NCBI GenBank assembly: GCA_016169945.1
Contig: JADLSH010000318.1
Location: 2,204,501 to 2,268,500 of the forward strand
Direction: 5' to 3'
Length of the DNA stretch: 64,000 bases
Origin: Trachythela sp. YZ-2020
Taxonomy: Eukaryota > Cnidaria > Anthozoa > Malacalcyonacea > Clavulariidae
Positions 48,351-51,400 of the stretch are shown piece by piece; the first letter of the stretch is position 1, and every line of letters begins with the position of its first letter. Made by a program: the position numbers and the translations under genes. Under the pieces are notes generated by a model. It was not told the DNA's origin. It saw only the letters and a program-made list of their open reading frames with translations, and did no database searches.

Positions 48351-48470
48351 TCAGAAAGTAACCAATCCAGCCGCAGCATAAGTGTTATATATGCGTTCTA
48401 TGCCGTGAATATAGGCTGCCGTACGTAAATTTAGTCCCAAGTCGTAACTGTCAGCCACATGTGCGATACG
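48351..48470 (-). CDS. GLUD1: Glutamate dehydrogenase alternative terminal exon b (distal)
   Basis: After a good TACAG acceptor it encodes [20 protein letters not shown] then [19 protein letters not shown] and a stop. Its phase (0) and first residues match exon a, so either can follow exon 50274-50336. The RTAAY core and AGL ending are those of the C-terminal helix of animal glutamate dehydrogenases. Confidence 0.88.
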   Translation of the reverse strand, partial: RIAHVADSYDLGLNLRTAAYIHGIERIYNTYAAAGLVTF

Positions 48471-51400
48471 CTGTAAGTAGAGAAAATATTGAGGGGTTAG
48501 TTTGATGATGGTGATGATGATGGTGGTGATGATAATGGTGGTGATGATGGTAGTGATGATAATGGTGGTGTTGACCAGTTGCATGGGGATAGCTACAATT
48601 CCTGTCTGAGCATACCTACCAACTCTGATCGATAAATATTTCATACTCTACAAGTCTAATAGCCTTACTGTATATATATAATATCGGTATTGCTAGATAA
48701 AGATTGCAGCTCTCAAATCTGAGCGATAAATTTTGCATCCTCTGGACATCTATCTACTTGGAACATATTCTTCCTGGCTCCTTAGCATTTAAAGACAAGT
48801 GTTATCAAAACTCTGAGCTATAAATTTTGCATATTCTACAAGTCTGCCTGGATCGAAAATCTACTAGACTTTTCAATGTCAACATTAGCTACTTGCTAGT
48901 TTTTTCAGTCATTTTCTAACTCTACGAACTGTACTCTGATAAATTTTCTATATTCTGCTGCAAATCTCTTCCTATCTATACTTCGTCAATTTTCCTGAGC
49001 TTTTTACGTTTTCAAGTTTTTTTATCGAAGTTCAAAATACCTTCGTAAATTGCCAAAATATAAATACTTGTTTGCTTATTTAAAATGTTAGCCCAGCATC
49101 GACATATGTTCCAAATATTTTCTCAAGAGAAACGATATAAGCCGCAGTACGGACATCCAGATCTAAATCGTATTCCTCCGCAACTGATATTATACGCTGT
49201 AAAAAGTAAAATGAGCAATTATAGGTGGGTTACACCCCCCTGGTTATACTAAGCACTATCGTGCAGCAGATGGTGGTCAACCTGCAGTTAGGTGGTACAA
49301 TGGTTATAGTGCACATGCCTTTCACGTCTGTGATCGAGGTTTGATTCCTGCAATATGCAGATTCCTGCAATATGCGTGTGTTAAGAGTGCTTTTTGACTC
49401 TATACCAAATACTGCTGGGTTTCTCCAGGTAATCCGGTTTCTTCCTGTACTAATACAACTGAATCAATAAGAGTTTGCTCTTATTGGACCTAGGAAGAAC
49501 AGTTTAGAACTGATAGAGTTAAACCAAACTCACTCCATATATTCTGGATAAGTTTCCTCCTGTAGTAACACTGGATCAATAAAAGATGATCCTCACTGGA
49601 CCTCTGATAGAGTTATCCAGAATATATACAGTTAGTTTAGTTTAAGTTAGATACATACATTACATATATTATTCAGCTCACTCCCTGTCGGGGCTTTTCA
49701 GTGACCGATTATATCAGGTATTTCGCTTACCTATATTACGTACTTCATATACACTATATATTTTACAACAATTGTGATATTACTTTCCTAATCTATATAT
49801 TCTAACCCACCCAGTCAACTTTCCCTGTGGGAGGAAATCCGAGTGCCCGGAGAAAACCCACGACTTTCGGCAGAGCGCTGACTTACTCTTTTCACACGAG
49901 TAGAGTCCCCAGCGAGAATCGAACCCACAACTTAGAGGTGAAAGGCGCTTGCTCTGACGACTGCGCCATCGAAGCCCCTTCTTCTACGAAGGTTCCTCCT
50001 GTAGTAACACTGGATCAATTCGAGTTTGCTCTTACTGGACCTCTAGGGAGAATTTAGAACTGATAGAGCTATCCAGTACAAATAAAGTTAGTTTAGTTTA
50101 GGTTTCCTCCTGTAGTAACACTGGACGTCTAAGGATAACAGTTTAGAACTGATAGAGCTATCCAGTATAAATACTCTGTTCAGCATTTCTCTAATGTTGT
50201 AGAAATGACAGGTTTGGCCGATAAAAACAGTATACAATATCAGTCTCAAATACTAAAAAATGAAAGCGCTCACCCTCGCTGATCTTTCCATCGTATATTC
50301 TAAACCTGAGTGAACTATATCCTTCTCTGAGGCACCCTGGAAAAGAAAACAATGCAATGTCATTTCTCCTCTATCCTCCTAGACCTTTAAGAGATCGTAC
50401 TGCTAATCATAACGTACCGCTATTCTTTCAGTAAATGCTTCCGTAGGTTGAATTGGTATATCTCGTTTGAAGGCCTGTCTTAAACTTTCTGCCACACTAC
50501 CTGAAATTTCAATGGAAACAATGACTCGATAGCTCAATGGGCAGAGGCCGGTCTAGAAACCCGAAGATGCGAATTCAAATCCCGCTCGAGAAAACGAATT
50601 TTGCATTGTTCTCTGAAGTGTCAGAATTGATATGAAAAACGTTTTTACACTTCTGAGAATGATTCAAATCCCACTCACTCCATCCTTCAATTTCAAAATT
50701 CAACTCAAATCATAAGAAAAATGACCCACCTAATAAATGACTATTACTTTCTTTCTCGTATTTCCAAGTTAGTCGACCGTAGCTAACATGATTTAAGTTC
50801 TTCAACCATTCGAAATAGGAGACTGTTACACCACCAGCGTTCAAGTATAAATCCTGGAGAGAGACGATAAAAAAGAGAGAGAAAAATGAAACTTTATCGG
50901 AATGTGGTTGCTGAAAGTTTAAATTGATGGTGGTGATGATGGTAGTGGTGATGATGATGAAGACGATGGTGGTGATGGTGAAGGTGATAATAATAATGAT
51001 AATCAGGGCTGCCGAGAGGGGGGGGGGGCAACTTGCAACCGAGATGGCGGTGATAATAGTTTTATTTATTTGAAGTTTCTCACCGGAATAACTAAAACAT
51101 TTTTGTCTATTAAAATTTTATCAGCTGCAGGCGTTGTTGGTCCGTTGGCGCCTTCAGCGATAACCTAAAGCATATATTTTAATAAATTAGCTCTATATCT
51201 TTTAAGGGAATTCAATATAGACTTCACAACGTGCAAACGAATTTCCCCACCTTTGCTTTGATATTGTAAGCATTCTTGGATGTAATTTGCTTTTCTCCTG
51301 CCGCTGGGATCAGGATGTCACATTCAGCTTCGAGCAGATTTGCCGTGGTCATCTAGTGGAAAAACACGTATAAAATATATATTTTTTGTCAGACGAATGC

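Follow-up and report, generated by a model that had tools for sequence, protein, structure and literature searches.

The window analysed here, a stretch of 64,000 nucleotides from the octocoral Trachythela sp. YZ-2020, carries on its minus strand a complete gene for glutamate dehydrogenase (GDH), which runs from 55387 to 48351 and has 15 exons. The first exon (55132–55387), with the start codon and the N-terminus, was placed by frame joining and by a whole-protein match to the genome. The open frame continues through exons 2–8 (53999–53865, 53264–53128, 52846–52696, 52470–52382, 52290–52254, 52127–52066 and 51724–51587) and exons 9–14 (51500–51465, 51352–51251, 51164–51084, 50853–50730, 50500–50418 and 50336–50274); the 14 upstream exons thereby join into a single frame with AG acceptors and GT donors. 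The encoded protein is 88% identical over 100% of its length to the GDH of the octocoral Xenia sp. and 86% identical to an octocoral-like protein, P0002; besides Xenia, the other named cnidarian GDHs among the matches listed show 65–72% identity. The alignment with the solved mammalian GLUD1 (7uzm) scores 785 bits and spans residues 13–534. Judged by this full-length similarity, which includes the antenna and the pivot-helix region, the gene belongs to the animal hexameric GLUD1 type. A gene that by eye looks cyclin-dependent-kinase-like (56027–58253, minus strand) lies upstream of GDH on the same strand, its end about 640 bases away from the start codon of GDH.

Two terminal exons of the GDH gene

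The original prediction held that the end of the enzyme is encoded twice, and its coordinates for the two copies proved exact. The proximal terminal exon (49080–49196, minus strand) consists of 38 codons followed by TAA. Its tail matches that of P0002 at 89% and is the conserved, ordinary octocoral tail. The distal terminal exon (48351–48470, minus strand) consists of 39 codons followed by TGA and encodes a diverged tail, which is closest to that of Xenia (66%) and in which K is replaced by R at human position 545 and D by N at human position 533. Exon 14 (50274–50336, minus strand) ends in phase 0 with ...TMERSAR, and its donor, gtgagc, would be common to both terminal exons. Both of these start in phase 0 and both are preceded by TTACAG; the common phase and the separate stop codons are borne out, and the acceptors are plausible. 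Either exon can complete the GDH frame, and the two are equivalent in position and phase; as adjacent homologous exons of one gene, they are tandem duplicated exons.

The acceptors were scored with a matrix built from the 13 constitutive acceptors of this gene, whose own leave-one-out scores range from -1.07 to 10.4. The proximal acceptor (GCTCATTTTACTTTTTACAG; 49197–49216, minus strand) scores 6.03 and the distal acceptor (AATATTTTCTCTACTTACAG; 48471–48490, minus strand) scores 7.27, both inside this range. Among the 159 AGs between 50273 and 47900, the proximal acceptor ranks eighth and the distal acceptor third; thus, the matrix by itself could not have picked out both sites.

Several short repeats were observed around these exons. 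Tandem arrays rich in GAT-like triplets (48503–48574, 50925–50981 and 52898–53054) occupy GDH introns and the interval separating the two last exons; one of them lies upstream of the distal exon at a distance of about 30 bases. In intron 14 (49438–50193) a short element is repeated several times in direct and inverted orientation, the copies having diverged, and a stretch near 49980–49900 in the same intron resembles, by eye, a tRNA-derived SINE. No Rfam family reached its gathering score in the window, and no tRNA gene was called in 47000–56000.

Homology, age and constraint of the two exons

The proximal and distal tails share 21 of 36 aligned residues and differ at 15 (42%). The predicted strong divergence was therefore found, although the difference is slightly below the half of all positions that had been claimed. 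A comparison of the proximal tail with the stretch 48000–49079 gave a score of 105, which was reached by none of 300 dinucleotide shuffles (largest score 38), and chance similarity was ruled out on this basis. Over the aligned codons the nucleotide identity is 56%. Given the large genome and its 396 contigs, two haplotypes of the last exon might conceivably have been assembled in tandem. However, the nucleotide identity and the difference of 26 of 36 third positions lie far beyond allelic divergence, and the flanks of the two exons are not joined by a long repeat; such an artefact was rejected on the divergence of the exons, and we give it virtually no credence.

The differences in the 36 codons are concentrated at third positions (11, 11 and 26 differences at codon positions 1, 2 and 3, respectively), and 14 of the 21 identical residues are encoded by different codons. 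The dN/dS comparison suggested in the original prediction gave, by NG86, a dN of 0.42 with a dS that is not estimable. We also simulated the divergence from the proximal exon as the starting sequence, using generic mutation parameters, two settings of proximal constraint and ten times with 250 draws each, and scored each draw for three features: 26 or more third-position differences, 21 or more identical residues and a frame free of stops. Not one of the 5000 draws in which the distal copy evolved unconstrained showed all three; when both copies were constrained, at best 18 of 250 draws did so at an omega of 0.1 and two of 250 at an omega of 0.2. Since 26 of 36 third positions differ and an unconstrained copy never reproduces the pattern, the duplication is old, and for most of their history the two copies have been coding. 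As far as the codon pattern can tell, both terminal exons were under coding constraint over the whole divergence, and the distal exon may have lost this constraint recently. In a further comparison with 176 family tails (104 distinct), the proximal/distal differences avoid family-conserved columns at a conservation cut-off of 80% (one-sided Fisher test, 0.005) and of 90% (0.039), with the avoidance absent at 95% (0.26).

In principle, a tandem duplication of the whole gene could have left a second GDH of which nothing but the distal exon survives. Xenia has a second GDH gene, each of its two proteins being listed on a contig of 12,639,825 bases, which shows that GDH duplication does occur in the octocoral group. 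Nevertheless, tblastn over the window turned up no further GDH exon, either between the two terminal exons or beyond them, and neither the whole-protein search nor the distal-tail search found a second GDH gene in the 578-Mb genome. The whole protein gave 12 matches, all within this gene (contig C87), from 13 candidates scored at E values up to 0.001; the distal tail matched only itself and the proximal exon (two of two scored candidates, E up to 10). Because all of these matches lie in this gene, no second GDH visible to such searches has the distal exon as its end. The second-gene relic was rejected on the tblastn and genome searches, and we regard it as highly improbable. Of the two Xenia proteins (P0001 and P0012), the one from the second GDH is itself diverged: by eye, its middle part, from GFPGAQMTT... 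onward, is identical to that of the main gene and both flanks are different, an arrangement that resembles gene conversion.

Related tails in octocorals and echinoderms

In a tree of the tails, the proximal and distal tails fall into one four-row octocoral group (95/97), with the distal tail beside Xenia (95/79); this tree is built on 39 columns and is poorly resolved, with one of 24 inner branches starred. A tree in which the proximal and distal tails are forced to be sisters is not rejected (p 0.204). Read most simply, this topology points to a duplication in the octocoral lineage, after which the distal copy would have changed faster. The distal branch measures 1.01 changes per column versus 0.075 for the proximal branch, an approximately 13-fold difference. 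The claim that the duplication is old and that both exons are maintained holds for the age and for coding over most of the history, as the simulation indicates, but the two copies have been far from equal in their rates.

The distal tail has so far no counterpart among the proteins searched. With the full-length distal isoform as the query, all three octocoral-like rows (P0001 and P0012 from Xenia, and P0002) among the best 120 of 7998 matches, in which octocorals are thinly represented, end closer to the proximal tail; the comparison for conservation of both exons covers these same three GDHs. A 170-residue C-terminal query returned no octocoral-close C-terminal fragment among the best 120 rows listed (best identity 73%). 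The distal tail alone as a protein query returned no row from eight candidates; this search also missed Acropora P0006, whose tail aligns well, and its empty result is therefore a weak negative.

These observations bear on the possibility that the distal exon is a relic, which was long used but today survives solely as 3' UTR sequence in the proximal transcript, slowly decaying. The long distal branch and the altered lysine at position 545 (described below) could reflect relaxed constraint or recent disuse, and the protein searches, for two of which the best 120 rows each were listed, yielded no distal-tail transcript or protein. On the other hand, the 39-codon frame is intact, with its own stop and a phase-matched acceptor that scores in the constitutive range, and the changes at conserved residues are mild, namely K to R at 545 and D to N at 533, where N is found in six of 239 other tails. 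In the simulation, drift without constraint across the full divergence never gave the observed pattern, although use may have been lost recently. Taken together, we judge the relic unlikely, though a serious competitor to the reading that both exons are in use.

According to the original prediction, no description of this arrangement was known. X1/X2 isoform pairs of echinoderms, however, vary within the same GDH tail. These pairs were identified in Patiria miniata (P0073/P0074), Lytechinus variegatus (P0075/P0082) and L. pictus (P0088/P0090), in which 12, 9 and 10 residues differ, respectively, all inside the last 39; in L. variegatus the differences start at the fifth residue past the exon boundary, and in the other two pairs at the second. 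They were found in a scan of 240 gathered proteins, 172 of which had a usable tail length and a motif that allowed cutting at the exon boundary, using an identity of at least 0.90 over the last 200 body residues and a tail identity lower by more than 0.12. Nine pairs were obtained: the three single-species X1/X2 pairs, five cross-species echinoderm pairs and one pair of P0136 with Bombyx mandarina P0159. No such pair from vertebrates or other cnidarians was present among the 172 usable proteins, which come from a database clustered at 90% that may merge near-identical isoforms. Alternative GDH tails therefore are not unique to this genome; annotated proteins of one sea star and two sea urchins place them in a second phylum as well.

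The echinoderm and octocoral cases are alike in that the variation affects the same gene, lies within the last 39 residues and begins at or just past the same boundary. There are, however, distinguishable differences between them. The first is the extent of divergence, with 9–12 of 39 residues differing in the echinoderm pairs and 15 of 36 in the octocoral pair. The second is the lysine at position 545, which is kept in both echinoderm tail types but is arginine in the octocoral distal exon; the K-to-R change is thus specific to the octocoral distal copy. In addition, the echinoderm tails are known here from proteins alone, whereas the octocoral pair is known from exons. The shared boundary would also be expected if all of these tails came from one duplication in the cnidarian–bilaterian ancestor and were lost in most lineages, and an AU test leaves a single clade of all alternative tails standing (p 0.236); a single clade of the echinoderm alternative tails is likewise not rejected (p 0.411). 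In the poorly resolved tree, nevertheless, the distal tail groups with octocorals, and the two types of echinoderm tail fall among echinoderms (86/88) rather than with the octocoral distal copy. Together with the lack of a vertebrate or other cnidarian pair in the scan described above, this makes a single ancestral origin improbable. Separate origins of the octocoral and echinoderm tails are favoured, though not proven, by these groupings.

Regulatory residues and a putative splicing switch

By alignment with human GLUD1, position n of the exon corresponds to human residue 519+n. M522 and R523 have been named as residues of the pivot helix, with R523 near the ADP site, and N551 adjoins the C-terminal/leucine site (PMC11050691). 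At these three positions, the distal exon encodes A, H and A and the proximal exon I, S and V; in the family, M522 is present in 224 of 240 proteins and R523 in 119 of 240. The swap was predicted to be confined to the C-terminal helix near the pivot. It does lie near the pivot helix and the allosteric sites, but it is not confined to the C-terminal helix, as the exon also encodes the pivot-helix residues corresponding to M522 and R523. Among the more conserved positions, 531 is G in 236 of 240 proteins, the D of the proximal exon occurring in two others, and 533 is D in 231 of 240. Position 26 of the exon (K545) is lysine in 239 of 240 proteins, the 240th (P0004) being without this region; the distal exon alone has arginine there. 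SIRT5 controls the glutarylation of K545 in human cells, and the K545R form of human GLUD1 loses its response to SIRT5 (PMC5803207). A C-terminal tag on GDH was also found to disturb ADP activation (PMC11050691).

We consider it probable that the locus is one GDH gene with alternative homologous terminal exons, derived from an old tandem duplication, that tune the regulation of GDH. In this scheme, the exon-14 donor would be joined to either the proximal acceptor (49196) or the distal acceptor (48470). The proximal choice would give the conserved octocoral tail and leave the distal exon in the 3' UTR; the distal choice would skip the proximal exon. Both isoforms probably end at the same AATAAA (48164–48169, minus strand), which would make a second poly(A) site unnecessary. 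No other AATAAA lies on the minus strand from the proximal stop (49080) to 47700, and past the proximal exon there are the variants GATAAA (49026) and AATATA (48954). In the window, AATAAA is no commoner than chance (112 found versus 122 expected) and so lends weak support to a shared transcript end. The isoforms would be identical over residues 1–498 and diverge from inside the pivot helix to the C-terminus; with the swap limited to this part, they should differ in acylation control and in how they respond to ADP, NADH or leucine, not in catalysis. This regulatory difference is inferred from the residues concerned. A broader proposal, in which a splice switch on GDH evolved repeatedly in animals by last-exon duplication and the octocoral distal isoform, with arginine in place of K545 and without the pivot-helix methionine M522, escapes acylation control and has an altered nucleotide response, is offered as a speculation that we think unlikely. 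If true, such an enzyme would be useful for nitrogen exchange with the environment or with symbionts.

GDH connects carbon with nitrogen metabolism, and its regulation is generally attributed to ligands, modification or separate genes. A spliced swap of the pivot/C-terminal region, if real, would add a further regulatory layer, for which there are exons in the octocoral and named isoforms in echinoderms, and would provide natural pairs of enzymes whose sole difference is the regulatory tail. The regulatory difference can be tested directly and cheaply through the K-to-R change at the SIRT5 site.

The arrangement is best read as a case of a known class, the C-terminal substitutions of tandem duplicated homologous exons. 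In a survey of such substitutions, C-terminal cases were enriched (77 of 236 human events; PMC9741552). Tropomyosin (TPM1, Tm1 and lev-11) resembles the GDH case in having tandem homologous exons and isoforms that are identical outside the homologous segment (PMC9741552, PMC4465641, PMC9013439). Its exons are used one at a time, whereas for GDH the use of both is inferred; its 3' exons originated independently in different phyla (PMC9741552), as seems to be so for the GDH tails. The terminal cases described in PMC9741552 are rich in membrane helices, coiled coils and disorder, whereas the piece swapped in GDH belongs to the allosteric region of a housekeeping enzyme. The main texts of these three articles do not mention 'glutamate dehydrogenase', and neither 'GLUD' in the main text of PMC4465641 nor 'GLUD1' in that of PMC9741552 occurs. 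In humans there are likewise several GDHs with altered regulation, but the splice variants of GLUD1 differ in exons 1–2, GLUD2 is a separate intronless gene and the part of PMC5192433 consulted describes no C-terminal alternative exon such as the octocoral gene has. A broad but incomplete coverage of titles and abstract openings yielded no description of alternative C-terminal GDH exons, and within this literature the GDH case itself appears to be new.

Elsewhere in the window, an open frame on the plus strand (36889–37335) encodes a zinc-finger-associated domain, zf-AD (ZAD), with a Pfam E value of 1.9e-15. This domain is known mainly from insects. Long reading frames were also observed, which by eye resemble a BEL/Pao-type retrotransposon (20757–28678, minus strand) and a non-LTR reverse transcriptase (29219–30472, plus strand).
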